Source of the DNA: Ensifer aridi
GTDB lineage: Bacteria > Pseudomonadota > Alphaproteobacteria > Rhizobiales > Rhizobiaceae
Direction: 5' to 3'
DNA length: 64,000 nt
Assembly: GCF_002078505.1 (NCBI RefSeq)
Contig: NZ_LUAV01000018.1
Location: 76,195-140,194, forward strand
Both the position numbers and the translations under genes were made by a program. The notes beneath the pieces are model-generated. The model worked only from the letters and a program-made list of their open reading frames with translations, ran no database searches and was not told the DNA's origin. Below, piece after piece: positions 4,598 to 61,115 of this stretch. How positions within the stretch are numbered: the stretch's first letter is position 1; each line of letters starts with the position of its first letter.

Positions 4598-4703
4598 ATG
4601 ATTTTAGATCGGGTGGACCTAAAATCATAAACGTCATCGATTCTAACGGGTTCGCGCGGACTGCGGGCGGAAAAACGCGTATATTTTTCCTGATCCCGCG
4701 CTA
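4598..4703. repeat. Sinorhizobium-type intergenic palindromic repeat element
   Basis: Directly after the ligase stop is a perfect 10-bp inverted repeat, ATGATTTTAG (4598-4607) and CTAAAATCAT (4619-4628), around an 11-base loop. It is followed by AACGTCATCGATTCTAACGG and by a second imperfect GC-rich palindrome around 4653-4703 (GCGCGG ... CCGCGC). The combination resembles a mobile intergenic repeat that I recall from Sinorhizobium genomes. No T-run follows, so it is not a standard terminator, though the hairpin may protect the 3' end. A degenerate half copy appears at 34264-34293. Confidence 0.6.
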
Positions 4704-4943
4704 AACATCTGAAATCAGCGCCTGGATTGAAAGCTCGGCGCTGACGGGAGTTCGTAGCGGGAATATTCGCAGGCGGATTCCGGAGGTTGCGTGGTTGGTC
4801 GAACGAATGAATGGATGGGGCTTAATCGGTCATCTGACGGTTTCGGTCAGTTTATGGGCCTGACCCTAGGCTCAGCCCACCAAAATAGGGCGGCTCGACG
4901 TACCTCGCATGGTAAGAAATTCAGCTAGAGACACCTGGTCCTG

Positions 4944-6110
4944 ATGAGACGATGGTTTTGGATCGCTGCGCTCCTGGTGTTCGCCATGGTGGCTTTCAAG
5001 CCCTTGATCTTCCGCGCCGTCGAAGCCCTTCTGGTGATCGAGGACGTCGCCGCAGGCTCTGGGGCGAGCCGCCTGAAGGAGTGGAGGGCGGCCCCCATCC
5101 GCGAACAGATCACCTATCGCGTACCAGGGAAAACGAACACCGCGGATGTTTATCGTCCCGGCGGAGGCGAGCATGCACGGGCGACCGTCGTCGTCGTCCC
5201 CGGAGTCGTGCGGCTTGGCAAGGACGACCCCCGCATCGTAGCGTTCGCGGAGACCATGGCGAGATCGCGATTCATGGTGTTCGTGCCGGACCTGAAAAGC
5301 CTCCGTGAACTGTCGATCCGGTCTGAGGATGTTGATGAGCTCAGCGCGCTCACTTGGCACATCGCCTCGAAGGAGACCGCTGGCGCCGAGAAGAGCGTCG
5401 GGATCGTCGCCTTTTCCTATGCTGCAGGGCCGGCCATCCTGGCGGCGATGAACCCACAGACGCGGAGGCTCGTCCGTTTCGTTTATGCCATCGGCACCTA
5501 CTACGACATCATTTCCCTCGGCACCTATTTGACGACAGGCTATTTTCGCGAAGGCCCCGATCAGGGCTGGCAGAGACGAACGCCGAGCTCCTATGCCACC
5601 TGGGTCTTCGTCCACAGCAGCGCAGCGTGGCTGAAGGACCCCGCGGATCGGCGGATTCTCAAAGCGATGTCAGAGACAAAGCTTGCGGACCCCGACGCTG
5701 ATGTGAGAGGTATGGCCGCGCAGCTTGGGCCAGAGGGTCAAGCGGTACATCGGCTGCTTCTCAATAGGGATCCGGAGAAGACGCCGCTGCTCGTCTCCGA
5801 ACTGCCGGCGTCAGTACTCGCCGAGTTCCATCGCCTTGATCTGCGGTCACGGAATATGGCCGATCTCCAGGCCACTCTCATCCTCGTTCACGGCCGGGAT
5901 GATACGCTGATCCCCTATTCGGAGAGCATCAGGTTGGCGGCCGCGGCTGACACGGACAGGACGCATCTTTTCGTCATTCGAAGTCTCGCTCATGTCGAGC
6001 TTGGCTCCAGCGGCGTTGTTGATCTGTGGATGCTATCGAGGGTCTCCTATCTGCTGCTTACCGAGCGCGACGCAATGCCCCCACCGGTGGGTAATCGGCT
6101 AATCAAGTAG
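4944..6110 (+). CDS. Membrane-anchored alpha/beta hydrolase
   Basis: A 388-residue protein with one N-terminal hydrophobic segment (residues 4-22) that looks like a signal anchor, placing the enzyme on the periplasmic face. The strand-nucleophile turn is VAFSYAAG with Ser158, a departure from the usual Gly-x-Ser-x-Gly. An Asp in GRDDTLIPY and a His in LAHVELG complete an alpha/beta-hydrolase triad in the right order. Substrate cannot be read from sequence. It follows the ACP/acyl-ligase gene in the same direction, but a repeat and 350 bp separate them, so joint transcription is uncertain. Confidence 0.75.
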   Translation: MRRWFWIAALLVFAMVAFKPLIFRAVEALLVIEDVAAGSGASRLKEWRAAPIREQITYRVPGKTNTADVYRPGGGEHARATVVVVPGVVRLGKDDPRIVAFAETMARSRFMVFVPDLKSLRELSIRSEDVDELSALTWHIASKETAGAEKSVGIVAFSYAAGPAILAAMNPQTRRLVRFVYAIGTYYDIISLGTYLTTGYFREGPDQGWQRRTPSSYATWVFVHSSAAWLKDPADRRILKAMSETKLADPDADVRGMAAQLGPEGQAVHRLLLNRDPEKTPLLVSELPASVLAEFHRLDLRSRNMADLQATLILVHGRDDTLIPYSESIRLAAAADTDRTHLFVIRSLAHVELGSSGVVDLWMLSRVSYLLLTERDAMPPPVGNRLIK

Positions 6111-6650
6111 CCGAGTTGGTGGCAAGCGACCCACAATCCCCAGAACCGCCGTGAGAGGATAGTGCGTGCTTCCTTAAGAGGGGGCGGGTATAGCAGGCTG
6201 CCGATGTTCAACGTCACGTGATCCGCGCGACGGAACGCGGCTATGAGGCATGGTGCGCGCCGTTAGCGGGGTGGCTCGCTACTCGTGGACGTGACAAACT
6301 CCTAGCCCCAATCAGTCAAGAAAGCGCTTCGCGATTGAACCCGTGCTCCTGCGCCAGGGTAAGTTAGCGTTCGGCCTTTGCCACATTGCCGAGCTCCAGA
6401 TTAAGCGTTGGAAATCTATCTTAACATGGAAAAGATCTTTGCGGTTCGCTCCTCTCCCGAGTCTTCATGAGCGCTCGCTATAAAACCGGACAGCGAGTTC
6501 CGGTGGATTTGCGCCGGGACGAGCAACGGCACCGCCAGATGCTCAAGTCGGTCGAGCACAGATCTCGACTGCCTTCTCGCCGGCTGGTGCACCTCCCAGT
6601 ATTCAAGTCTTGAAACTCGCGCGGCCTCGGGTGACTGGACGGAGCTTATT
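6111..6650. other. Gene-free stretch upstream of sigma factor
   Basis: About 540 bp without a coding sequence I can support; reading frames here are short and lack ribosome binding sites. It should contain the promoter for the ECF sigma gene. I did not find a clear ECF-type promoter pair that would show autoregulation. Confidence 0.4.
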
Positions 6651-7217
6651 ATGAGACGGTTTGCGTCCAACGTTCCTCTCTCGTCCTGCATACGCGTCCG
6701 TTCGGATCTTGATACCGCCCTGCTGGCATGCGCAGCCGGTGATGAAGATGGATTAAAGACGATTTACGATCAGGAAGCGACGCGGCTGTTGGGAATGGCT
6801 TACCGCATCGTTGGCGAGCGTGATCTGGCTGAGGATGTCCTCCAGGACGCCTTCCTTCAGATTTGGCAGTACGCCTCGAGTTTCGACGCGAACCGCGGGT
6901 CAGCCCGCGGGTGGATTTACTGCGTCGTACGTAACTGCGCAATAACAGTGCGGTTGGCGAGGCTTCACGAAGTCGCAATAGAGGACCGAATTTTGCTGGC
7001 GATGTTCGACGGAAATGCTGTTCAAGTTTCGCGCCTCCCGGAGAATTGTGCCTTGCGACGCGGCCTTGAGCAGTTGGACCCCAGGCGGCGTGACAGCCTG
7101 ATCTTGGCCTATGTGCACGGTTGCACCCATGATGAGATAGCTGAGCGGCTCCGGGTCCCGGTTGGCACGGCGAAGGTTTGGATTCGTCGAAGCCTGATTA
7201 CCCTACGGGCGCTCTAA
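6651..7217 (+). CDS. ECF-type RNA polymerase sigma factor
   Basis: A 188-residue sigma-70 family protein of extracytoplasmic-function size. Region 2 is seen as AYRIVGERDLAEDVLQDAF followed by a WIYCVVRN stretch (about residues 42-90). Region 4 is LDPRRRDSLILAYVHGCTH plus an HTH ending in VPVGTAKVWIRRSL (about 140-185). The ATG at 6651 is preceded by GGAG with 6-base spacing, so this start is well supported. It ends just after the recognition helix, shorter than many relatives. Most such factors are followed by a coupled anti-sigma gene; none is visible here and the next 600 bp are decayed, so the partner may have been lost. Confidence 0.88.
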   Translation: MRRFASNVPLSSCIRVRSDLDTALLACAAGDEDGLKTIYDQEATRLLGMAYRIVGERDLAEDVLQDAFLQIWQYASSFDANRGSARGWIYCVVRNCAITVRLARLHEVAIEDRILLAMFDGNAVQVSRLPENCALRRGLEQLDPRRRDSLILAYVHGCTHDEIAERLRVPVGTAKVWIRRSLITLRAL

Positions 7218-7381
7218 ACTTGAGGGGAAGCCGGTGATGCAACGATCGCGCAAAAAAGTGAAAACGGCGCAGAGCGAGAGAATGATAGTGATTGTACTCA
7301 CTGGTGGGACTCAAACAAGATGGCAACGCAGCGGGAGAAAAAAATTATCCTTGCCGGAAAGTACGTCCTTGGCCCGCTTGA

Positions 7382-7534
7382 CTTCTCACGCTCGAGCGAG
7401 ATGATTTTAAGTTCTGGCCCACCACCTGCATTGATGGCCTCCGGGTTAGCTTATTTATCATTACCGGCGAGCACACCCTCCTCGACTACCTGCTTCGCTC
7501 GTTCTACGACAACTCTGTCCTTTATCACCATTAA
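7382..7534 (+). pseudogene. Possible HlyD/membrane-fusion C-terminal remnant
   Basis: A frame open from 7382 to a stop at 7534 encodes about 50 residues including GLRVSLFIITGEHTLLDYLL. This resembles the conserved C-terminal block of type I secretion membrane-fusion proteins (pattern GMPVEVFI.TGERT.L.YLLKPL). No intact upstream part exists and no start codon or ribosome binding site is convincing. If correct, it is a fragment of a lost secretion gene. The match is short and judged from memory, so the assignment is tentative. Confidence 0.25.
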
Positions 7535-7710
7535 GCCGGGCAGCTATGGACCTCTCTATCTCAAGGCCTGATGCCATTTGGCGACCGGCTCTCTCCCCTG
7601 ACCTCTGCGGCGCCGGAATCGCTGCTGCTGAAATTTGTCGCCCATCATCTCTGGGATCCGGTCAGACGCGCCGAAACCCCGACCACGGCATGCCGGCTAT
7701 GGGGGAAAGC

Positions 7711-7925
7711 GGCCTGCGGGTGAGCGAGGTCGCTCGCGAAGCATCGGAAATCGAACCGCGCCGCCACGGGACGCGACTTCCTGCGAACGGCATTCCCAAG
7801 GAAGTCGCTCCGCTGGTATTTGCCTTTCAACGGAACGCTTGAGCGGCTTGAGAACGAGTTTAAGGAACGCCAGCGCTTCCTGATCGATGCGGCGCATGAG
7901 CTCAGAACACCGATCGCCATCATGA
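7711..7925 (+). pseudogene. Sensor histidine kinase fragment (HAMP to H-box)
   Basis: Two adjacent frames together encode a kinase linker and phosphoacceptor segment. The first, to about 7842, reads VSEVAREASEIEP then GIPKEVAPLV. The second continues with FNGTLERLENEF and AAHELRTPI, the H-box of classical sensor kinases. Removing one T from the CCTTTC run near 7828 would join both frames into continuous kinase sequence, so a single-base insertion is the apparent frameshift. The N-terminal sensor and the whole catalytic ATPase domain are missing. At about 7925 the sequence passes in frame into a broken esterase copy. Confidence 0.7.
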
Positions 7926-8441
7926 AGGCCAAATATTATCTGCCGAAGAACCTGTCGAAGAAACCGGCGCTCGCCGTCGTCCTGCACGGATGCACGCAGA
8001 TTCCAGCCGATTATGATGTCTGCTCGGGCTGGTCGAAACTGGCCGACAAGCACGCTTCGCACTGCTCTACCCGCAACAGGTGCGGAGCCGACGGTCACCG
8101 AAACGGTGGATGGGCACACGCGGAAGATCTGGAAGGACAACAAAGGCCAGGAGCTCGTCACCCTCTACAGCATCGAAGGAATCGGGCATGGGTTGCCGCT
8201 CGACGTGGCAAGTGGCTATGAAAAAAGCGGTCCCTACATGCTCGACGTCGGCATATCGTCGACAGCGCGAATGGCCCATTCATGGGGACTGACGCGAAAA
8301 TTGGTGAGCCCCCGGCGCGAAGCCGTTGCAAATCCATCTTCCGAGCACTCCGCAGTCGCAGGCCATTCATCGTCGGCACAGGGTAAAATCCGGAAAGTCA
8401 ACGAGGATGCACTTCGATTGACCGGACTGATGCTGAAATAG
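7926..8441 (+). pseudogene. Broken PHB-depolymerase-type esterase copy
   Basis: This is a damaged paralogue of the intact esterase at 27403-28488. It matches that gene from its KARYYLP segment through SKLADKH, then loses one G (near 8055) and has a large internal deletion near 8083 that removes the whole middle, including the catalytic serine. A second frame resumes at the equivalent of APTVTE and runs to 8441 with the same ending (GHGLPLDVASGY, then HSWGLTRK). The start is replaced by a histidine-kinase fragment, in frame. No functional product is expected. Confidence 0.85.
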
Positions 8442-8873
8442 ATTTCCTGAAGCCCAAGCGATGCTTCCATGAGAGGCGCTAACGGTATCATGGAGGGTTC
8501 AGCCCGATTTTCTTGCGAGCAGGAGATGCAATCTCCGGAGCCGGGGCTGGCCTCTTATACGATGTTTTGTCGACAGATTTCCGGCCGTTTGTTCTTGTGA
8601 ACCGGCTTTAAGGCCTCGCCTGCGTTGCGGATTGAAGCTCGCAGGTTGCTCCAAGATCTCGATAGCTAGTATGTCGAGGGGAAGGGGTTGCCTCTGTCAG
8701 AAGCTTATACCGACGCCTGGCGCACGGGAACAAAGGCGTATTTGATGCGTTAGTCGCCACTTGAGCACGAGGTGCGCACCGGGGCTATCGCACTGCGCCG
8801 GAGTTCTCCTCCTCACTTTCCTGAAGGTGTTGGTTCAATCAACTGCTGCTGCTCATAAGGGGCGTGCTTTCAT
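8442..8873. other. Degenerate intergenic stretch
   Basis: About 430 bp with no supportable gene. A frame around 8625-8755 reads EARRLLQDLDS, a stop, then EAYTDAWRTGT, which looks like decayed coding sequence of unknown origin. The promoter of the PAS kinase should lie near the right end. Confidence 0.3.
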
Positions 8874-11393
8874 ATGGCGAATGTTGAGGAGTTTCCACTT
8901 CCGGGGCGCCCGCTCAGCGAATACGATGCCTTGGTCACCGCAGCGCCCGGCGTGCTTGAGGCGATCCCGGGAGCCGTATATCTGTGCGACCACGAGGGAT
9001 GGATCGTCCGTTACAATACGGCAGCCGTAGAGCTGTGGGGGAGACGTCCCTCGCTAACTGAGCCACGAGAGCAATTCTGCGGCTCTTACCGCCTGTTCCG
9101 AGTTGACGGCTCGTTTCTTCCGCTCGCCGAATGCCCGATGGCGGAGGCGGTCCGGTCTGGCGTTTCCACGCACAATGCCGAAGTTGTGATCGAAAGGCCC
9201 GACGGCTCGCGCGTTATGGCCCTCGTCAATATTCGGCCGCTTAGAGATCCTCGGGGGCACATCCAGGGAGCGATCAACTGTTTTCAGGACATTTCAAAGC
9301 AAAAGGAGGCTGAGGAGGTAGCCCGCCGCAAGAGCGAAGATCTTGAGGACTTTTTCGAAAACAGCGCAATCGGCCTGCACATCGTTGATGGCGCCGGAAT
9401 AATCCTGCGGGCCAATAAGGCGGAGCTGGACCTTCTCGGCTACACGGCGGAAGAATATGTCGGGCGACACATCGCGGAGTTTCACGTCGATGCGCCCGTC
9501 ATCGGCGATATCCTTCAGCGCCTGTCTTGCGGCGAAAAGCTCTATCGCTATCCAGCCCGCCTGCGCGCCAAGAATGGCTCCATCAAGCATGTGGTGATTA
9601 CTTCCAACAGCCGGTTTGAAGGCGGTAGATTCGTCAATACCCGTTGCTTCACCACCGATGTGACCGAGCTTGTCAAAGCCGAAAACGCACGGCGCGAGAG
9701 CGAGCAACGTCTGGCAGCGACCTATCAGGCCGCCACAATCGGGATAGCCGAGGCCGATGCGGAAGGCCGCCTGGTCCGCGTCAACGACGCGTTCTGCACC
9801 ATGCTCGGCCGCTCGCGCGATGAACTGCTGAAGATGACGTTTTTCGACTATACGCATGAAGAGGATCGTGAGAATGAGGCATACCAGTACGGGCGCCAAG
9901 TGCGAGGAGAGATCGAAAGTTACACGGCACGCAAGCGTGTCGTCAGGTCCGATGGGACAACGGTCTATCTCGACGTCTACAGTTCGTCAGTGCGAGATTG
10001 CAGCGGCGCGTTCCGTTACGGCGTTCGCGTCCTTCTGGACGTAACGGAAACCAAGAGAATGGATGATCGCCTTCGTGAAAGTGAGCGCCACATGCGCGAC
10101 TTGCTCGAGGCGCTCCCCGCAGCCGTCTATACCACCGACGCAGACGGCCGCATCACTTTCTTCAACAAGGCGGCCGTGGAGATGGCCGGCCGTACGCCTG
10201 CACTTGGCGACAAATGGTGCGTTACCTGGCGGCTCTACAGGCCGGATGGGACCTATTTGCCGCATGATCAATGTCCAATGGCTGTGACGTTGAAGGAAGA
10301 TCGGCCGGTGCGCGGGGAGGAGGCCATCGCCGAACGGCCCGACGGTACGCGCATCCCCTTCATTCCCTATCCGACACCGTTGCATGATGCGAACGGCAAC
10401 CTCATCGGCGCGATCAACATGCTGGTGGATATCTCCGACCGAAAAAACGCCGAGGCCTATTCCGAACGGCTCGCCGCCATCGTGAAATATTCGGATGACG
10501 CAATCATAAGCAAGGACACGCAGGGCATTATACAGACATGGAATGTAGGGGCCGAACGCCTGTTCGGGTACATGGCGGAGGAAGTGATAGGAAGGCCTAT
10601 AAACATTCTCATTCCGCCCGATCGCCAGAATGAGGAGCCGGGCATTCTTGACAGGATCCGGCGTGGCGAGCACATCGACCATTACGAAACCGTGCGGGTG
10701 CGAAAGGATGGAAGCCTCGTTGACATCTCCTTGACGGTTTCGCCGCTCAAGGACGGTCGCGGCCATGTGGTCGGCGCATCGAAGATCGCCCGCGACATTA
10801 CCGAGAGGCGCCTTAGCGAGGAACGGCGCCAACTGCTGGTCAATGAGTTGAACCACCGGGTGAAGAACACGCTAGCCACGGTTCAATCGCTTGCCGCGCA
10901 AACTTTCCGTGGCGAAGGGGAGGCGGCTGCGCTGAGGCGGTTCGAAAGCCGTATCATCGCCTTGGCAAGGGCTCACGATCTCCTAACGCGGGAGAGTTGG
11001 GAGGGCGCGGACTTGCACGCGCTTCTCCGCGACACCATCGCCCCGATGTGCGCTGAACCGCAGCAGCGCCTCGAACTCTCAGGGCCGCCGTTGCGCCTGC
11101 GCCCAAAGTTGGCGCTTGCCCTGTCGATGGCCTTTCATGAACTTTGCACCAATGCCGCAAAATACGGGGCGCTGACGACCAGCGACGGGAAGATCAACAT
11201 CAATTGGCATATAGGCGATCACCTGCGCATACGATGGCAGGAGACTGGCGGTCCGCGGGTCGAACCCCCAACAAGCAGAGGATTTGGCAGCCGCTTACTC
11301 GAGCGGGCCTTGACCCGGGAGGTTGGTGGAAAGGTGAATCTGTCGTTTGCGCCGACGGGTGTGATCTTCGAAGTCGAGGCGTCATTGACGTGA
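8874..11393 (+). CDS. Multi-PAS HWE-family sensor histidine kinase
   Basis: An 839-residue cytoplasmic sensor without membrane segments. Five PAS/PAC units can be seen at roughly residues 20-140, 155-270, 285-400, 405-520 and 525-640. The first and fourth share an unusual block (YRLFRVDGSFLPLAECPM and LYRPDGTYLPHDQCPM), which suggests internal duplication. The transmitter starts NELNHRVKNTLATVQSLA, with His661 as the phosphoacceptor, and is followed by an HWE-type ATPase with a conserved FHELCTNAAKYGAL helix. This family often handles light, redox or general stress signals in rhizobia. The single-domain receiver 63 bp downstream is the obvious partner. Ligand or cofactor is unknown. Confidence 0.9.
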   Translation: MANVEEFPLPGRPLSEYDALVTAAPGVLEAIPGAVYLCDHEGWIVRYNTAAVELWGRRPSLTEPREQFCGSYRLFRVDGSFLPLAECPMAEAVRSGVSTHNAEVVIERPDGSRVMALVNIRPLRDPRGHIQGAINCFQDISKQKEAEEVARRKSEDLEDFFENSAIGLHIVDGAGIILRANKAELDLLGYTAEEYVGRHIAEFHVDAPVIGDILQRLSCGEKLYRYPARLRAKNGSIKHVVITSNSRFEGGRFVNTRCFTTDVTELVKAENARRESEQRLAATYQAATIGIAEADAEGRLVRVNDAFCTMLGRSRDELLKMTFFDYTHEEDRENEAYQYGRQVRGEIESYTARKRVVRSDGTTVYLDVYSSSVRDCSGAFRYGVRVLLDVTETKRMDDRLRESERHMRDLLEALPAAVYTTDADGRITFFNKAAVEMAGRTPALGDKWCVTWRLYRPDGTYLPHDQCPMAVTLKEDRPVRGEEAIAERPDGTRIPFIPYPTPLHDANGNLIGAINMLVDISDRKNAEAYSERLAAIVKYSDDAIISKDTQGIIQTWNVGAERLFGYMAEEVIGRPINILIPPDRQNEEPGILDRIRRGEHIDHYETVRVRKDGSLVDISLTVSPLKDGRGHVVGASKIARDITERRLSEERRQLLVNELNHRVKNTLATVQSLAAQTFRGEGEAAALRRFESRIIALARAHDLLTRESWEGADLHALLRDTIAPMCAEPQQRLELSGPPLRLRPKLALALSMAFHELCTNAAKYGALTTSDGKININWHIGDHLRIRWQETGGPRVEPPTSRGFGSRLLERALTREVGGKVNLSFAPTGVIFEVEASLT

Positions 11394-27197: not shown

Positions 27198-27402
27198 CGG
27201 CCAAAGTCGCCGACCATTGTAGCGCAACATCAGCGAGTGCAGCCCGCAAGATGATGAAATTCCTTGCGGTCTTTTGATCTACCCACGCAGCTGAAGTGAC
27301 CATCACGGATATTTCATTGTGCAGCGCAGCAACAACTCTGGCCCAGCCACGTTGTTACTCGGCCGCGCCATCCGTCCGCTGACGCAAAGGAGATATCCAT
27401 CC

Positions 27403-28488
27403 ATGAAAACCCTATCCATTACACTTGCAAGAATCGCGCGACTGAGGACAGGCAAAGCCGAGCAGCTGCACTCCCGCAATAGGCTTGCCACACTGACGAA
27501 TTTCGGGTCGAACCCAGGTAAATTGAAAGCCAGATATTATTTGCCTAACAACCTGGCGAAGAAACCGGCGCTTGTCGTCGTCCTGCACGGATGCACGCAG
27601 ATTCCAGCCGACTATGATGTCTGCTCCGGCTGGTCGAAACTGGCCGATAAACACGGCTTCGCACTGCTCTACCCGCAACAAGTACGCGGCAATAATGGCA
27701 ATCTCTGCTTCAACTGGTTCTTGCCGGGCGATATCAGGCGCGGAGCGGGCGAGGCTCTGTCCATTCGTCAGATGATCCAGACAATGTGCTCAAGGCACAA
27801 GGTCTCCAAAGAAAGAATATACGTCACGGGACTGTCCGCCGGCGGTGCAATGGCGAATGTCTTGCTTTCGACCTATCCCGAGGTTTTTGCCGGCGGCGCG
27901 ATCATCGCCGGCCTCCCATATGCAACCGCGCTAACCGTTTCGGAAGCATTCGAGCGAATGCGCGGCCACGGCATCCCGAATCCGCGAGAACTGCGCGCCA
28001 AAGTTCTGGCAGCGTCCAGTCATTCAGGACCATGGCCGACGATCTCCGTCTGGCATGGAACGAGGGACAGCACGGTTGCCGAAGTGAACGCGCGCGCAAT
28101 CGTCGAACAGTGGCGCGGCGTGCATGACTTGGGCACGGCGCCGACGGTCACTGAAACGATAGACGGGCAGAAGCGGAAGGTCTGGAAGGACAATGACGGA
28201 CGGGAGCTCGTCAGCTTCTACAGCATCGAAGGCATGGGGCACGGGCTGCCGCTCGACGTGGCGAGCGGCTATGGAAAAAGCGGCCCCTACATGCTCGACG
28301 TTGGCATATCGTCGACCGCCCATATTGCCCATTCATGGGGACTGACGCGAAAACTGACGAGAGATCGCCGGGACAAAGCAAAGCCGCCTTCCGCGTCCTC
28401 TTTAAATGCGGATCGTTCACCCTCGGCTCAGAACAAAATCGGGAAAATCATCGGCGACGCTCTTCGAGCAGCCGGGCTGACGCGCTGA
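27403..28488 (+). CDS. PHB-depolymerase-family esterase (LpqC-like)
   Basis: A 361-residue alpha/beta hydrolase. The oxyanion region VVLHGCTQ and the nucleophile GLSAGG (Ser145) are typical of the PHB depolymerase/LpqC esterase family. The Asp in HGTRDSTV and His in GMGHGLPLD complete the triad. The family acts on short polyhydroxyalkanoates, feruloyl or similar esters; the true substrate here is unknown. There is no clear signal peptide. The ATG at 27403 has AAAGGAGAT upstream, a strong ribosome binding site. A broken copy of this gene lies at 7926-8441. Confidence 0.88.
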   Translation: MKTLSITLARIARLRTGKAEQLHSRNRLATLTNFGSNPGKLKARYYLPNNLAKKPALVVVLHGCTQIPADYDVCSGWSKLADKHGFALLYPQQVRGNNGNLCFNWFLPGDIRRGAGEALSIRQMIQTMCSRHKVSKERIYVTGLSAGGAMANVLLSTYPEVFAGGAIIAGLPYATALTVSEAFERMRGHGIPNPRELRAKVLAASSHSGPWPTISVWHGTRDSTVAEVNARAIVEQWRGVHDLGTAPTVTETIDGQKRKVWKDNDGRELVSFYSIEGMGHGLPLDVASGYGKSGPYMLDVGISSTAHIAHSWGLTRKLTRDRRDKAKPPSASSLNADRSPSAQNKIGKIIGDALRAAGLTR

Positions 28489-30367: not shown

Positions 30368-32857
30368 TCAGCCCGTTGGTCCAACTCGCGAACGGCTGCG
30401 ATCCGGAACAGAGCCTTGCTGATCGTATAGATCCGACAAACCGGCGAGTAAGGCCGGGGCGAGAAGATAAAGGATGATGGCGATCGTTACGACGCCTGTG
30501 AACCCGACATGCATCGCAAGCAGTGCGGCGAGGATCGCGCTCAGCACCGACGCAGAGCCATTGATCCCCCAGGCCCAGGGAATAAACTCGTCCGAGTGTG
30601 CACCGACGAAGCCGAGGCCGAGCGGGAACGGCATACCCATAAAGACGGCGAGCGGCGCTATGAGGAGGAGTGTGATCGCAATCTTCGCGGCATCCGGCAG
30701 TGCCAGCAGCCGTTCGAAGATCAAGGGCAATGTGAGCAGGTAGGTGGCAGCCAGGAATGCGATCACCACGACGGCTAGGGCAATGCCGCGCACCGGTGAT
30801 CCGCGCCCGACCGCGGCCATCCACCGTGCGGCTACGGCGCTACCGAGACCGGCGAAAGCAAGGAAACCCGCAAGCACGACAGCGACAGCGTAGAGCGGAT
30901 GGCCGAGGAACAGCACGAAGCGCTGGATGAAGGCGATCTCGATGAAGAGGAAGGCCAAGCCCAAGGCAAGGAAATAGAGCCCGAAGCGCAGCCGGTGTCC
31001 GGCTCTCCCGAGTGCGCGCCGGCGAAGCCAGAGCGGCAGGAGGATCAAGACGGCGCTGAGGATCGCGGCCTGGCCGAGCGTCGTCACCAGGATCAGGTAG
31101 CCCCAGTCGAGCATCGCTGCCCCACCTTGGGTGCGCAGCGTCACGAGTTCGGGCAGAGCGCGCCAGCGGAAGAAGTCGAAGAAATAGGGCCGATTGTCAG
31201 TCGCCGGTGCAATATCGAACTTGTAGCGCTCGATGAAGTCGGCGCGCCCAGGACCGAGGAGAGCGAGGGCTCCCGCGTAGAGATATTCCTGGTCGAGCTG
31301 GTTGTAGCGGTTCACGTCGCTCGCGGAGATGCCTGGCGCCCAGGAGATATCAAAGAAATTCTCGGCGGCGAAGCGGCGGATGGCGGCGATGTCTTCGCCG
31401 GTGAAGGGCGATTTGGCGACGAGCAGGGTTGCCGTATTCCAACTCCGGATCAGCACCAGGTGCCGGCCTGGCTGGGACACCCCATCCGCTTCAAGCGCAA
31501 CGGTAGCAGTGGCAAACAGCTTGAGGATGTCGCGCGGCGGCATCCGCAGCCATCGCGTGATCGCGACGATCCCGTCTGCTCTCAACACCGCTAGGTAATC
31601 CCGCATTGCCTCCACGGTGTAGGTATAGTTCTCATGCATGCTCTGCACTCCGGCCGCGGCCGCGCCGAAGGAGTCGAGGAGCGGCATCTGGATCAGTTCA
31701 TAACGCTCGCCAGTGGTCGCAGCGAAGGCGCGCGCCTCGGCTAGATGCAGATGCACGTTCGGTCGGCTGAAGATGCCGCCGACGAAATCCGCGAAGCGAC
31801 TTCGGGCGAGGTCGATCATCTGCGGGTTGACCTCTACCGCATCGACGATTTCGGCTCCGGCGCGTAGCGCCAGCAGCACCTGCTCGCCGCCGCCGGCGCC
31901 GAGGATTAGCACTCGCGGCCGCTCAAGGATGCGGTACGGGAGCGCCGCCGTTGTCCGGTCGATATAGGCGACCGTCGCCGGATCGCCGCCATAGGTGGTG
32001 ATCGCCGTAATACTGTCGCCATCGGTAAAGACGGCGAGTTGCGCGGGCGGCTCTTGGCTGTTGGCGAGGCTGAGGCCCGGCGCGTACCGGAAAGGGATGG
32101 TCGGGCTCTCGACGACCGTCAACAGTCCGAGAGGGCTTGATCGCTCCTCGACCACCCGCGCATTCGGCACTTCGAGAGCCATGCGGAGGCCCTTGTACTC
32201 AGACATGTGCGGGCCGGGGGCCGTCCAGGACTGTGGTAGCCACACCGTGATGACCGCGGCTGCAAGCCCGAGGATGCCCGTGGCGAACCATCGATGGCGA
32301 GGCATGCCCGTCGCGGCGAGGGCAGCCGCCGCGAATCCCAGCGCTGCGACGAAGCGCAACGCTTCGGAGGGAAAGACCAGGAACAAGAGTCCGACGATGC
32401 CGAGCGCACCGATCCCTGCGCCGACGAGGTCAAAGGCATAGACGCGTCCGGTCTGGCCAGGATGGCGGCTGAAGGCAAGGCCGATACAGGTTGCACCGAA
32501 AAAGAAGGGCAAGATCAGGAGAGCATAGATGGCCGCGAGCCAACCGAGCTGCCGCGGATTCCAGACGATCTCGAGCGCGTTGAACGGCAGGCGCTCGGCA
32601 CAGGCGAAGCTGGCAACCGCAGTAATTCCGAACAGAGCCGCCGACGCTGCGAAGGCGGCCGGGTACCGTTCCACCAGGGGGCGGCGGGCCAACGCAATGA
32701 ATGTACCGCTCGCGCCAAAGCCCAGGAGCGCGATGCTTATCATCATATAGGCAAAATGATGCCACTGAATGATCGAAAACAGCCTTATCAGCAGCACTTC
32801 GTAGGCAAGGGTTGCCGCCGATATGAGACCGATCGGCAGCAGGCGCCCCGCTCTCAT
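30368..32857 (-). CDS. Large spermidine-synthase-like membrane protein
   Basis: An 829-residue protein in three parts. Residues 1 to about 225 contain six or seven membrane segments. Residues about 285-540 form a Rossmann methyltransferase-type domain with LILGAGGGEQVLLAL and DAVEVNPQMIDLAR, as in spermidine synthases. Residues about 585-810 contain a further six or seven membrane segments. Such proteins are often annotated as spermidine synthase, but true aminopropyl transfer is not established for them. The start codon overlaps the pcm stop in ATGA, so the two are translationally coupled and probably work together at the membrane. Confidence 0.85.
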   Translation of the reverse strand: MRAGRLLPIGLISAATLAYEVLLIRLFSIIQWHHFAYMMISIALLGFGASGTFIALARRPLVERYPAAFAASAALFGITAVASFACAERLPFNALEIVWNPRQLGWLAAIYALLILPFFFGATCIGLAFSRHPGQTGRVYAFDLVGAGIGALGIVGLLFLVFPSEALRFVAALGFAAAALAATGMPRHRWFATGILGLAAAVITVWLPQSWTAPGPHMSEYKGLRMALEVPNARVVEERSSPLGLLTVVESPTIPFRYAPGLSLANSQEPPAQLAVFTDGDSITAITTYGGDPATVAYIDRTTAALPYRILERPRVLILGAGGGEQVLLALRAGAEIVDAVEVNPQMIDLARSRFADFVGGIFSRPNVHLHLAEARAFAATTGERYELIQMPLLDSFGAAAAGVQSMHENYTYTVEAMRDYLAVLRADGIVAITRWLRMPPRDILKLFATATVALEADGVSQPGRHLVLIRSWNTATLLVAKSPFTGEDIAAIRRFAAENFFDISWAPGISASDVNRYNQLDQEYLYAGALALLGPGRADFIERYKFDIAPATDNRPYFFDFFRWRALPELVTLRTQGGAAMLDWGYLILVTTLGQAAILSAVLILLPLWLRRRALGRAGHRLRFGLYFLALGLAFLFIEIAFIQRFVLFLGHPLYAVAVVLAGFLAFAGLGSAVAARWMAAVGRGSPVRGIALAVVVIAFLAATYLLTLPLIFERLLALPDAAKIAITLLLIAPLAVFMGMPFPLGLGFVGAHSDEFIPWAWGINGSASVLSAILAALLAMHVGFTGVVTIAIILYLLAPALLAGLSDLYDQQGSVPDRSRSRVGPTG

Positions 32858-33606
32858 CGGGCGCCACCTCCACGCAGCGGCACAAAGCTTACTGGCAGCA
32901 GCTGCCGGGTCGTGATGCTTCCGTCCCGTCGCTTCTCGACCAGCATGAGAAACTGGGTCGCGAAGGGACCTCCCACGGGGACGACCATCCGGCCCCCTTT
33001 GGCGAGCTGCTCAACCAGCGGCGGCGGGATGTGACTGGCGGCGGCGGTCACCACGATGCCGTCGAAAGGCGCGCGCGCAGGCCAACCATAGTAACCGTCG
33101 CCTACCTTCACCTCGACATTGTTGTAGCGGAGCTCCGCGAGGCGGGCGGCCGCCCTTTCGCCCAGTTGCGGTATGATCTCAATCGAATAAACCTTCCCTG
33201 CGAGCGGCGACAAGACGGCTGCCTGATAGCCCGAGCCAGTACCGATCTCGAGGACAGAGTCGCCAGGCCGGACGTTGATCAGATCGGTCATCAGCGCGAC
33301 GATGAAGGGCTGCGAGATGGTCTGGCCGTATCCGATCGGCAGTGGCCTATCTCCATAGGCTGCGCTGCGCTGCTCCTCAGGCACGAAAAGGTGGCGCGGC
33401 ACCTTTCCCATCGTCGTCAGCACCGCCGGATCGATGCCCTGTCCCTCGACCGCGGACGGCGCTGAGCGCGCGTGCCCTTTGATGGTTTCGATCATCGCTG
33501 CACGCTCGGCCAAGCGATTCTGAGCGGGTGCGGATGTCGATACCATGGCGGCAGCGCTCGCGAGAACCACGACCAGCAACGCTCGGCACTGGGCTAGTCG
33601 ACGCAT
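32854..33606 (-). CDS. pcm: Exported protein-L-isoaspartate O-methyltransferase
   Basis: A 250-residue protein of the Pcm family. It contains the substrate region GYGQTISQPFIVALM, motif I VLEIGTGSGYQAAVL, and VTAAASHIPPPL. It methylates isoaspartyl residues to start repair of aged proteins. Unlike the cytoplasmic enzyme, it has an N-terminal signal peptide (residues 1-29 from ATG 33606, ending SAPAQ). That ATG has GGGAGAGGG upstream, which is why I reject the longer frame to 33792. Since SAM is cytoplasmic, an exported Pcm is puzzling; an anchor instead of cleavage, or donor passage via the coupled membrane protein, are possibilities. Confidence 0.85.
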   Translation of the reverse strand: MRRLAQCRALLVVVLASAAAMVSTSAPAQNRLAERAAMIETIKGHARSAPSAVEGQGIDPAVLTTMGKVPRHLFVPEEQRSAAYGDRPLPIGYGQTISQPFIVALMTDLINVRPGDSVLEIGTGSGYQAAVLSPLAGKVYSIEIIPQLGERAAARLAELRYNNVEVKVGDGYYGWPARAPFDGIVVTAAASHIPPPLVEQLAKGGRMVVPVGGPFATQFLMLVEKRRDGSITTRQLLPVSFVPLRGGGAR

Positions 33607-56310: not shown

Positions 56311-56778
56311 ATGAGCAGCGTGGCGGCCGCGAACATGCGGCAAACCCTCTCCGAAGCAGTTGGCCAGTCGGTGCGGCGCGCATTGGCGACTCTCCAAGAG
56401 CGTTACGGCAGCGCGCTCTCGGAAGGCAAGCGGGACCTGCTGCTCGGCCACTATGTCTACGGTCTTGCGTCGGTGCTGCTTGCGGGCGAACCCCCCGCCC
56501 GGCAACTCGAGGCGATCGAAACCCACCTGAAAGAAGTGCTTCCCGCCGAGCGAGCCGCGAGGGCACTGCAGGCGGTGCCGGATGAGGGTGACACCTGGTT
56601 GGTGAGCACGCTGGATAGCATCGAAGCAATCGGTGGCAAGCACGGTCATGCGCTTCTGGCGCACGGTGCCGCCGCCAGCCATCTCAAACCATTATCGAAC
56701 AAAGACGCATCGGTGGCAGGGCCGGCGGAACCTGCCGCGATCGAGAGCAAAGCGGTAGAGGAGATACTCACCCGATGA
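56311..56778 (+). CDS. Hypothetical protein coupled to the YadA-like adhesin
   Basis: A 155-residue largely helical soluble protein with no signal peptide. It contains [20 protein letters not shown], then [17 protein letters not shown] and an alanine-rich C-terminus. ATG 56311 has AAGGA upstream; a longer frame goes to 56203. The stop overlaps the adhesin start in ATGA, so both are translated in a coupled fashion. I do not recognise the family. Position suggests an accessory cytoplasmic factor or regulator of the autotransporter. Confidence 0.6.
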
Positions 56779-59700
56779 TACCCATGCAAGGAACTGCTGT
56801 CCGGCGCGGGCTGACCTGCTTTGCAAGAAATTGGATTCTTGGTGCGGACAGGAGCGGCCGTTCCATTCGCCGTCGCCTCATGGCGGTCCTGCGCATGGCG
56901 CATCTGGCGCTTGGCGTGAAGCGTAATCGGATGGGTCTTGGTGCGCTCGGGTTTGGAAACGCATCTTGTGCCGCAAGATCGTCAGGAACTCCGGCGGGCA
57001 AGAAGGGCCTATGCGCGGGCGTGGCGCTGCTGGCACTATCGGCGCTTCACGCCGTTCCTGCCCATGCGCAATATGCCGCCGGCGGCGGCACGGCGTCAGG
57101 CGCCAACTCCGTCGCCATCGGTAACGGTGTCCAAGCGAATAGCGCGAACAGCGTGGCCTTGGGCACCTCTAACAGTGCAACGGGCGACGCTTCGATCGCC
57201 ATCGGCTATGCGATGGGTGTCAATGGCCTCAACGCCATAGGCATAGGTGTCTTCGCGAACGCGACAGGCGTTAACGCTCTTGCCATAGGCGGGAACGCCC
57301 GCGCACTCGCGGATGGAGCGTCAGCCTTTGGTGTCAACACGACTGCAAACGCGGCAAACGCGACCGCCATCGGCTCTACGGCCACTGCTGCAGCTGCCGC
57401 TACGGCCGTTGGCGTATCGAGCCAGGCAACCTCCCTCAATTCCGTCGCTATCGGCAGCCTCAGCCAAGCGACAAATAGTGCTGCTACCGCCGTCGGAAAC
57501 GGTGCCCGGGCCACGGGAAACAGTGCGCTCGCGCTCGGCGCGGAGGCTGCCGCGATCGGCAGCAGCACGGTTGCTGTCGGACAGGGTGCCGGCGCTGGAT
57601 CGACCACTGCTAATGCCGGTTCCGTAGCGATGGGTATCGCTGCCGGTACGCTCGTCAGCGGCGCGCAGAATACCGCTGTCGGCGGTGGCATTGCCAGCGT
57701 CATGAGAGGTGCCGGCTCCGGCGTCACGGGAGCGCGCAACGTCTCCATGGGAACCGGCGACGGTTCCGTCACTTATGACGGTACGCTGGCAGCTTCCGCG
57801 GGCAACCTGGTGACGGGCGACGACAATATCGCGATCGGAACCAACGCCGGTATTGGCGTCACCAGCAACGCGACAACGTCAATCGGCCGCAACGCCATGG
57901 CGACAGGGACCAATGCGGCGGCGATTGGAGCCGGGGCCAGTGCGAGCGGGCTGAACTCGGTCTATCTTGGCGCACGCACCGTTGTCGGAACAGGTGCTAT
58001 TGGAGAGAGCGCCATCGCCATCGGCACCGATGTGACAGCGTCTCAGACCAACGCCATTGCGATAGGACGCCAAAGCGTGGCGACCGCACTGAATAGCGCG
58101 GCAATTGGTCCTGCCGCCAATGCGACGGCACAACACTCGGCAGCTTTTGGCCCGAACGCCAATGCTTCCGGTAACTTCGCACTCGCCTTGGGTAATTTGG
58201 CCGTGTCGAGTGGTGTCGGTTCTGTTGCGGCAGGCTCGGGAGCGCAGAGCGCGGGTGTCTCCTCGGTGGCGGTCGGCAATAATGCTGCCGCATCTGCCGC
58301 GAATACGGTAGCGGTCGGCCTAGGTGCGGCTGCAGACTCAGCCGATGCGGTCGCCATCGGCACGAATGCAAGGGCAACGGGCGGCAAGGCGGTGTCGATC
58401 GGTTTCGGCAACATCGCCAACGGCAACGGTGCGGTGGCGATCGGCGACCCCAACACCGCCAGCGGCGACGGCGCCGTGGCGCAGGGCATGGACAACACGG
58501 CCACCGGCAACGGCTCGGTCGCCATGGGCAATACCAATATGGTTGGCGGCGGCGGACAGGCGGTGAGCACGCCCGGCACCGCGGCGCAGGGTGCCGTCGG
58601 CATCGGCTATCAGAACACCGTGACCGGCCAGGGCGCGGTGGCCATCGGCGACCGCAACATCGCCAATGGCGTAAGCGCCATCGCCATGGGCAGCCAGGCC
58701 AACGCCGCTGCCGCCAACGCGATGGCCCTCGGCGCCGGCGCAACCGCGACGCATGCCGGATCCGTGGCTCTCGGTTCGGGCTCGGTCACGGCCGTCGCGG
58801 TACCCACGGCGAACACCACTATCAACGGAACAACCTACAACTTCGCCGGCACGGCCCCGACCTCGACTGTAAGCGTCGGCGCTGTCGGCGCCGAGCGCAC
58901 CATCACCAATGTGGCGGCAGGCCGGATCTCCTCGACCTCGACCGATGCGGTCAACGGTTCGCAGCTTTTTGCGACGAACCAGGCGATCACGGCAGTCGGC
59001 ACCGATCTCGACACGTTTGGCACGAGCGTGTCGACGGCGCTCGGCGGCACCTCTGCCTACAATCCGATCACCAACCAGGTGACGGCGGGACTTGCAATTG
59101 GCGGCACGACCTACAACAGCGTGCAGTCCGCCCTGTCAGCGGTAAACAGCACGGCCTCGGCCGGCTGGAACCTGCAGTCGAACGGGGATGCCGCGACGAA
59201 TGTCGCTCCGGGCGGGACGGTGCAGTTCCTCAACGGGCAGAACATCTCCGTCACGCGCAGCGGCACGGACATCACGATCGCCACGACGCCGGCCCTCGCC
59301 GCCGACAGCCTGACGCTGTCGAGCGGGCAAGTGTTCGATGCCACGGGCCTCTTCATGAACGGCACCGGCATCAGCGGCCTTTTGGACGGGACGGTCTCCG
59401 CGACCTCGACCGAAGCGATCAATGGCTCGCAGCTCTACGGCGCGTCCCTGAGCATCGCCACCATCCTCGGCGGCGGCGCCATCGTGAACCCGGACGGCAC
59501 CGTCAGCAGCCCGACCTATACGATCGCGGGCAGCACCTACACGACGGTGGGCGGCGCCTTGACGGCCATCGACAACAGCCTGACGGGCTTCGATAACGCC
59601 CTCAACGGCGGCGGGATAAAATACTTCCATGCCAATTCGACGCTTGCGGATTCGAGCGCCGCGGGAACCGACTCGGTCGCCATCGGCCCGCAGAGCGTCG

Positions 59701-61115
59701 CAACCGGCAACAACAGCTTCGCCGCAGGCTTGAACGCCCAGGCAAGCGCCGGCGCCTCGCTCGCCATCGGCCAGAACACCCAGTCGACCGTGCTCGGCGC
59801 GGTGGCGCTCGGCTCGGGCTCCGTAGCCGACCGGCCGATTGCGCCGACGTCCGGCAGCATTCTCTCCGGCACCGGCATCATCCCGTACAACACGACGGAC
59901 AAGACCCTGCTCGGCGCGGTCTCGGTGGGCAACTCGACGTCTTACCGGCAGATCACCAACGTCGCCGACGGCACGGAGGACCAGGACGCAGTCACTCTTC
60001 GCCAGCTCAAGGGGGCACTGTCATCGTTCGCGGTGTCGGGCACCAAGTACTTCCACGCCAATTCGGCGGCCTCGGATTCGGCTGCTGTCGGCGCCGAATC
60101 CGTCGCGATTGGCCCGCGCACGACCGTCAACGGCGATAACGGCATCGGCATGGGCAACGGCGCCGTCGTCCAGATGACGGCGCCCGGCGGCACCGCCATC
60201 GGCCACAATTCGACCGTCAACCTGGCCGACGGCATCGCGCTCGGCACAAATTCGACTGCGAACGGCATCCAGGCGACGGCGCTCGGCGCCGGCGCCACCG
60301 CCAATGAACCGGGCAGCGTCGCACTCGGCGCAGGCTCGACAACAGCGGCCGCAGTGGCGACCACCGGCACTACCATCAACGGCGTCGCCTACACCTTCGC
60401 GGGCACCAACCCGACGAGCACCGTGAGCGTGGGCAGCGCCGGCAATGAGCGCACAATCACCAATGTGGCCGCAGGGCGCATCAGCGCCACATCCACCGAC
60501 GCCATCAACGGCAGCCAGCTCCATGCGACCAATCAGGCCGTCGAATCCCTGCAGGCGGGAGTTGGCGATCTTGAGGAGACCGCCGTCAGATATGACGAAA
60601 ACCCCGACGGCACGAGGGCGAACTCGATGACGCTCGTGGGCGGCGATCCGAGCGCGCCCGTGATCATCCGCAATGTCGGTGCCGGCGTGGCCGACACGGA
60701 TGCGGTGAACGTAGGGCAGATGAAAGCCACACTGGCCGGCTATTCGGACGACCGGGCGACCTGGGCGGTCGGCCAGGCAAAAAACTACACCGACGAGGTG
60801 GCCGCCACGACTCTGAGCTCGGCCAACGCCTACACCGACTCCAGGCTCAGCCAGCTCAATACGGACATAGGCGACATCCGGAGCGAGGCTCGGCAGGCGG
60901 CGGCAATCGGCCTGGCGGCGGCGTCGCTGCGCTATGACGACCGGCCCGGCAAGCTGAGCGTCGCGGCAGGCGGCGGCTATTGGCGCAACGAGGGAGCGTT
61001 TGCGTTCGGCGCCGGCTACACCAGCGAGGACGGCCGCGTCCGCGCCAATCTTTCCGGTACGACCGCGGGCGGTGCGTGGGGCGTCGGGGCAGGCCTCAGC
61101 GTAACCTTGAATTGA
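56775..61115 (+). CDS. YadA-like trimeric autotransporter adhesin
   Basis: A 1446-residue surface adhesin. An extended signal region of about 97 residues ends in VPAHAQ. The head (about 100-700) is made of many 14-residue Hep_Hag repeats (units like [14 protein letters not shown]). Neck and stalk parts follow, with the conserved [16 protein letters not shown] block twice in full form (about 725 and 1245) and a variant near 890. The last 90 residues form the YadA membrane anchor ([21 protein letters not shown], ending in VTLN), which builds a 12-strand barrel as a trimer. It should mediate attachment to roots, surfaces or other cells. Confidence 0.93.

Follow-up and report, generated by a model that had tools for sequence, protein, structure and literature searches.

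Repair of isoaspartyl residues by the methyltransferase Pcm is known as a cytoplasmic job, since S-adenosylmethionine (SAM) is needed for it and is made in the cytoplasm. Another protein-repair enzyme, MsrP, has MsrQ as its membrane partner. In two reports, a Pcm is listed as cytoplasmic (PMC4287336) and pcm is one of the genes in the vicinity of msrPQ and hspA in metagenome-assembled genomes from sediment (PMC7451513). Here we describe a pair of genes in a 64,000-nucleotide stretch of Ensifer aridi DNA (contig NZ_LUAV01000018.1, positions 76,195 to 140,194; hereafter the window), which encode a Pcm with a predicted signal peptide and a large membrane protein (MP). We propose, at a probability of about 0.5, that the two genes form a module for isoaspartate repair in the periplasm, with MP providing SAM and perhaps also returning S-adenosylhomocysteine (SAH).

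Both genes lie on the minus strand of the window. The first (32854..33606) encodes a protein-L-isoaspartate O-methyltransferase of 250 aa including its signal peptide, which matches the Pfam family PCMT (PF01135; 209.1 bits, cut-off 20.3) and the repair-type equivalog of NCBIfam (NF001453; 230.8 bits, cut-off 188). Residues S98, E120, G122, G124, S125, D170 and G171 are invariant in an alignment of 46 rows, and we take them to be the SAM-binding motif and the QTIS substrate loop, both kept in relatives. Pcm keeps the motifs of an isoaspartyl methyltransferase, and the corresponding activity is predicted. The signal peptide reported by an earlier note on this DNA is borne out by the N-terminus, MRRLAQCRALLVVVLASAAAMVSTSAPAQ, which by eye has the form of a typical Sec signal ending in A-x-A and is predicted to cover residues 1 to ~29 (MRRLAQ...SAPAQ; 33520..33606, minus strand). 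The second gene (30368..32857, minus strand) encodes MP, a protein of 829 aa for which hydropathy, an AlphaFold2 model and structure searches predict a membrane part resembling the major facilitator superfamily (MFS) and an inserted spermidine-synthase-like domain. As had been observed before, the stop codon of Pcm overlaps the start codon of MP, the 4 nt ATGA being common to both (32857-32854; feature 32854..32857, minus strand), and this -4 spacing is found in 33 of 89 pairs. A 4-nt gene overlap is by itself common in bacteria; it is the conservation of the pair, not the overlap, that exceeds chance. Further PCMT proteins are present in the same genome; an export-type N-terminus is lacking, by hydropathy score, from the four that were examined (L002-L005), so the exported Pcm is an extra PCMT of this genome.

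Export was scored with a home-made hydropathy window that used the best of all candidate starts and treated paired and unpaired Pcms in the same way. With a limit of 110 residues and a threshold of 1.6 in the first scoring, export-type N-termini were seen in 98 of 107 paired rows and 0 of 24 unpaired rows. In the final scoring the limit was 200 residues and a threshold of 1.5, added at that stage, was reached by 156 of 158 paired Pcm rows (near set 89/89, distant set 19/20, class-draw set 48/49) compared to 1 of 24 unpaired controls; at 1.6 the counts were 154/158 and 0/24. Three exported Pcms that are not linked to MP (L152, L153 and L166) were excluded from these controls after inspection, and their inclusion gives 4 of 27 unpaired rows at 1.5 or above. 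The locus sets overlap (for example, L190 = L110, L195 = L111, L220 = L089, L229 = L119 and L240 = L116), and L090-L098 include species already among L009-L034. By eye, the signals of paired Pcms are mostly of the Sec kind, with twin-arginine-like (Tat) signals in L119, L120, L229-L232 and L235; L115 and L116 combine a twin-arginine signal with a lipobox-like Cys (Tat-lipoprotein type). The kind of signal varies and the outcome is constant, which suggests selection for the location of Pcm. Export of the paired Pcm, as claimed earlier for the window, is thus predicted by computation and well supported across many loci.

The Cys content of Pcm was also compared. The window's protein has no Cys downstream of the signal peptide, and the cores of paired Pcms contain 0.28% Cys versus 0.74% in unpaired ones, a contrast that is weak because 9 of the 21 unpaired cores are also Cys-free. 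Two Pcm lineages show recurrent Cys pairs (L036, L049, L071, L073 and L081; L048, L077, L079 and L084), which could be disulphides.

We assessed the conservation of the pairing in relatives of MP from named genomes, of which the best 80 of 134 were taken into the locus analysis. These 80 come from alpha-, beta- and gammaproteobacteria and from metagenome-assembled genomes labelled otherwise, and the named loci nearest to the window's MP among them are from Sinorhizobium. Pcm adjoins MP in 79 of the 80 loci. In the sole miss (L072), the 0.7 kb upstream of MP contains no Pcm, but it does match the spacer found in the related locus L057, which has its Pcm 1.1 kb upstream of MP; since the contig of L072 ends sooner, the expected place of Pcm is beyond the contig end. 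Among 89 pairs, with spacings that rest on computed start codons, the two genes overlap in 38, are 0-50 nt apart in 38, 51-120 nt apart in 11 and more than 120 nt apart in 2; in L115 and L116 the order is flipped, with MP first, and the genes are still adjacent. A draw of 398 Pseudomonadota genomes gave 27 with an MP match at E 1e-15, and Pcm lies within 1.5 kb in 22 of them (not in G258, G275, G140, G346 and G344). Two class draws (369 and 385 genomes) gave MP at E 1e-40 in 46 and 24 genomes; loci were obtained and examined for 58 of the 75 match rows, and 49 of these 58 have Pcm within 1.5 kb of MP. Three of the misses (L198, L243 and L247) are at contig ends, and in another (L227) an export-type Pcm is located ~5.2 kb upstream of MP on the same strand (L251:659-1372 and 6607-9009, G910); the search gave no Pcm for the other five (L236, L238, L242, L245 and L246). 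Paired MPs reach down to ~30% identity. The pairing is therefore old, widespread and well supported: the co-occurrence that the earlier note had proposed to check recurs in all three surveys, and the pair, far from being limited to this strain, is found across many proteobacteria, so that the original observation was right and much more general than first seen.

Within the genus (33 genomes, its own included), both genes are full in 10, both are fragmentary in 1 (G014) and neither is present in 22, the pattern to be expected if the two genes travel jointly as an accessory unit; the pair is also carried on plasmids. In the broken copy of G014 (L181, G014:C3), the start of Pcm (4624-5175) is followed by transposase-like genes and the end of MP comes ~6.5 kb on. 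A phage origin of MP was rejected, given that a search of 50,697 phage records gave a single match, which covers 15% of MP. Natural fusions of Pcm and MP were also rejected: an in-frame stop codon precedes MP in L077 and L084, and the long open frames of L121, L124 and L222 do not qualify, having different frames or positions or not being flagged as fused.

A third conserved gene was looked for in the 89 neighbourhoods, and no other family occurs in more than 14 of them; the gene caller was simple and, owing to competition between overlapping reading frames, recovered even Pcm as a cluster in only 69 of the 89. The unit consequently consists of Pcm and MP alone, in many contexts. Methyltransferase genes stand downstream of the pair in a Microvirga and a Phyllobacterium plasmid and have no signal peptide by eye; the one of the Phyllobacterium plasmid recurs only in 2 other Phyllobacterium loci, besides weak matches in own-genome loci. 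These neighbourhoods bear on the idea that Pcm has no repair role and modifies one specific periplasmic or imported substrate, such as an aspartimide-forming peptide or a cell-wall compound, which MP would transport. MFS proteins handle a wide range of solutes, there are PCMT relatives with a part in the maturation of peptides, and the profiles TIGR04364 and TIGR04188 of NCBIfam match Pcm, both below their cut-offs. On the other hand, Pcm passes the cut-off of the repair-type equivalog and no third gene for such a substrate recurs, and we regard this explanation as rather improbable.

Several findings weigh against the proposed module. L236 and L238 have no Pcm in ~5.5 and 6.3 kb of upstream DNA, and a branch of MP (L117, L118, L242, L245 and L246, the last three resembling the unpaired L117/L118) has none within 1.5 kb. 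Exported Pcms unlinked to MP were found in G258 and G275 (L152 and L153), with an MP relative elsewhere in both genomes, and G287, for which the phylum draw lists no MP, has a lipoprotein-type Pcm (L166). These exported Pcms without a linked MP imply that Pcm can function in the absence of this MP or that SAM has a different supplier. The distances of MP and Pcm correlate (Pearson 0.94, Spearman 0.87, 58 loci, 0 of 999 permutations), which speaks for the module; in the 42 loci of the main clade the rank correlation is lower (Pearson 0.90, Spearman 0.60), and common ancestry by itself can produce such a correlation. In a weakly supported tree, the Pcms of distant pairs fall outside the main paired clade, which may point to more than one origin of the pairing, and those of L112 and L113 are placed, also with weak support, near unpaired Pcms.

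Other features of these genomes were noted. The exported unlinked Pcms of G258 and G275 (L178:6455-7219 and L179:6524-7276) nest in the paired clade, with the MP elsewhere in each genome being of the L117 type. The lipoprotein-type Pcm of G287 (L180:5978-6757) adjoins genes that by eye look like those of a sensor kinase and of an efflux set. In G344 and G258 (L142:6216-8657 and L143:4240-6684), an MP-like protein of 813-814 aa, more distant in sequence, is encoded between genes that by eye are ftsW- and murG-like, which places this SAM-type membrane protein in a cell-wall and division cluster.

We then considered the membrane part of MP. The hydropathy of 60 MPs shows 15 peaks: a soluble stretch at residues 209-588 is flanked by 7 on either side and contains one weak peak (389-407), which was discounted from the segment count. 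In the AlphaFold2 model (pLDDT 91.4, pTM 0.91), the last two peaks form one unbroken helix (758-814). The 14 helices claimed previously agree with the 7 + 7 of hydropathy but not with this merged helix, and the number is 13 or 14; the predicted layout is a membrane part, a spermidine-synthase-like domain and a second membrane part. The highest Z for the whole model (residues 1-815) was obtained with SV2A, an MFS protein (Z 23.7, root-mean-square deviation (rmsd) 3.6, 352 aligned). The C-terminal membrane part was also folded alone (pLDDT 93.0, pTM 0.87), and all 50 of the VIA matches listed for it are MFS proteins, with NorA at the top (Z 18.5, rmsd 3.9, 212 aligned); among its 50 Foldseek matches listed, the nucleoside transporter PfNT1 stands alongside MFS proteins. 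The MFS assignment has its own difficulties: the matched VIA ranges of this C-terminal half mostly span both halves of the target, so that it does not map cleanly onto a single half; its best Foldseek match, FLVCR2, reaches an E of only 0.024; a Pfam search with 60 MP rows at E 0.01 gave no match to an MFS family; and hhalign of the two membrane halves revealed no significant internal repeat (probability 0.3 and 0.2 of 100). Because the fold appears in structure searches but not in the Pfam search, we term MP MFS-like and do not file it as a member of the superfamily. An MFS-like membrane part is nonetheless a good prediction. Conserved residues in it include R25, Y140, D143, Y628, E640, W763 and N766, and of the charged ones R25 is kept in 59 of 60 rows (with one Lys), E640 in 60 of 60 and D143 in 53 of 60 (with seven Asn). 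Such conservation is suggestive of a transporter for a charged solute.

The soluble SAM-type domain of MP (residues ~209-588; 31094..32233, minus strand) was characterized by fold and by residues. Residues 222-562 match aminopropyltransferases in Foldseek (1uir, E 3.3e-8), and the domain aligns with 3anx at a Z of 21.2 (rmsd 3.2, 262 aligned). The spermidine synthase profiles of Pfam (22.4 bits, cut-off 22.9) and NCBIfam (24.3 bits, cut-off 260) fall short of their cut-offs, and so does the PRK03612-type aminopropyltransferase equivalog (17.8 bits, cut-off 472, for the window's MP), a profile matched by 52 of 60 MP rows at E 0.01. The nucleoside-binding motif VLILGAGGG...VDAVEVN (residues 316-344; 31826..31912, minus strand) contains E342, invariant in 60 of 60 rows and presumably the ribose-binding acid from the role of the aligned residue, together with G322 (58/60) and G324 (59/60); D395 is kept in 57 of 60. 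The residues of 1uir that we take to be its first catalytic Asp and, in the G-G-G-D/E-G loop, the acid that binds decarboxylated SAM (dcSAM) are aligned to columns 392 (A25, S19, P15, D1) and 323 (G39, A16, T4, S1), respectively, in the 60 MPs. Having lost both, MP is disfavoured as an aminopropyltransferase and probably is not one. The earlier label of a spermidine-synthase-like protein with an internal SAM-type fold holds for the fold but not for the catalytic residues, and the domain looks like a nucleoside-binding domain that left aminopropyl transfer behind.

The same data bear on a polyamine- or dcSAM-related role, in which MP would be an aminopropyltransferase or a polyamine transporter linked to Pcm only by operonic co-regulation. 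Its fold and best profile matches are indeed those of aminopropyltransferases; yet the loss of the two acidic residues, a score so far under the equivalog cut-off and the recurrence of the pair in unrelated surroundings make this role very improbable.

The side of the membrane was predicted from the charges of the loops. Leaving out the soluble domain and the C-terminal tail, MPs carry on average 15.4 Lys/Arg in the loops on the side of the N-terminus versus 3.0 in those of the opposite side, where the soluble domain is, with the same bias in 60 of 60 rows, which by the positive-inside rule places the N-terminus in the cytoplasm and the SAM-type domain in the periplasm. Cys is scarce in the domain (29 of 22,610 residues, 0.13%) compared to the membrane part (331 of 26,677, 1.24%), which is in keeping with an oxidising compartment, although this comparison has no matched cytoplasmic control for MP. 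The domain is Cys-free in 32 of 60 rows, and the window's MP has no Cys in 209-587. A periplasmic SAM-type domain is a good prediction from these features, and with the predicted export of Pcm it would put both SAM-type folds of the pair outside the cytoplasm.

Two such folds in the periplasm could also mean two enzymes. MP would then be a periplasm-facing enzyme and not a transporter, its MFS-like part a mere anchor and its domain a second methyltransferase or other SAM enzyme that acts with Pcm on envelope substrates, with SAM coming from elsewhere. Plasmid records (H1, H3-H6 and H8 among 14 matches) do name MP a 'SAM-dependent methyltransferase', and the domain keeps its G-loop, E342, D395, E409, Y413 and T414, seemingly more than a pure docking site needs. 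However, an anchor needs no MFS-like fold with conserved charged R25, E640 and D143, and the SAM supply of the two folds would be left unexplained; we consider a second enzyme unlikely.

We favor MP as the partner that supplies SAM. SAM would be required in the periplasm by a nucleoside pocket kept there as well as by an exported enzyme that depends on it, and MP is the only conserved neighbour, so MP is proposed as the supplier; this is its most likely role. In the proposed mechanism, the exported Pcm would methylate isoaspartyl residues of envelope proteins, as repair or modification, and MP would be its dedicated inner-membrane partner. MP would bring SAM out of the cytoplasm, its periplasmic domain would hold SAM or SAH at the membrane surface and present SAM to Pcm, and SAH may go back in through MP. 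The earlier note had asked how SAM reaches an exported enzyme, and the MFS-like MP, with a SAM-type domain predicted to face the periplasm, is a candidate answer. We tentatively put forward the more specific idea, which we hold to be somewhat less probable than an even chance, that MP transports SAM (or SAM/SAH) and carries, as part of the same protein, a periplasmic docking site from which the exported methyltransferase is fed, a bacterial SAM route into the periplasm for envelope isoaspartate repair. SAM as the ligand, its transport, a contact between Pcm and MP, and isoaspartate of envelope proteins as the substrate are all inferences here. Repair of envelope proteins by Pcm is plausible, and the interpretation offered earlier, that the pair repairs or modifies such proteins, is partly supported.

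If this proposal is true, the repair of aged proteins in proteobacteria extends beyond the cytoplasm and is served by a dedicated inner-membrane route for SAM, perhaps also for SAH, and records that call MP simply a SAM-dependent methyltransferase would need correction. The question of usable SAM in the periplasm would become directly testable with two genes. Among titles and abstract openings of the open-licence literature, we found no description of the Pcm-MP pair or of a periplasmic isoaspartate methyltransferase, and 'periplasmic methyltransferase' was likewise without a match.

Elsewhere in the window, a 1446-aa repeat-rich protein (56775-61115, plus strand) resembles by eye a trimeric autotransporter adhesin, and 7820-8441 (plus strand) appears by eye to be a fragmentary second copy of an esterase- or depolymerase-like gene at 27319-28488 (plus strand).

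Compared to known systems, the exported Pcm shares the catalytic domain and SAM motifs of cytoplasmic Pcm/PCMT proteins (PF01135, NF001453; PDB 4l7v and 3lbf) and differs from them by its signal peptide and membrane-protein partner. The domain of MP has the fold, the ribose-type acid and the second Asp of spermidine synthase and other aminopropyltransferases (1uir, 3anx), but it lacks their first catalytic Asp and dcSAM acid and is placed, by prediction in the periplasm, inside a polytopic membrane protein. The membrane fold is like that of SV2A and MFS transporters (9okf, NorA, GlpT, FLVCR2), and SV2A resembles MP also in having a luminal domain between transmembrane segments 7 and 8; what sets MP apart from MFS transporters is a number of membrane segments above the usual 12, the lack of a Pfam MFS match and an inserted SAM-type fold. 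Two further systems are analogous in how they work. One is MsrPQ, which repairs methionine sulfoxide in the periplasm (PMC9302797, PMC7451513). There, too, an inner-membrane partner delivers what the periplasmic protein-repair enzyme needs, although electrons are delivered instead of SAM and the protein families are others, so that the two systems work alike and are not related. The Golgi SAM transporters of plants, GoSAMT (PMC9946043), move SAM through a membrane to serve methylation beyond the cytosol; they are eukaryotic, and their likeness to MP is one of proposed function.

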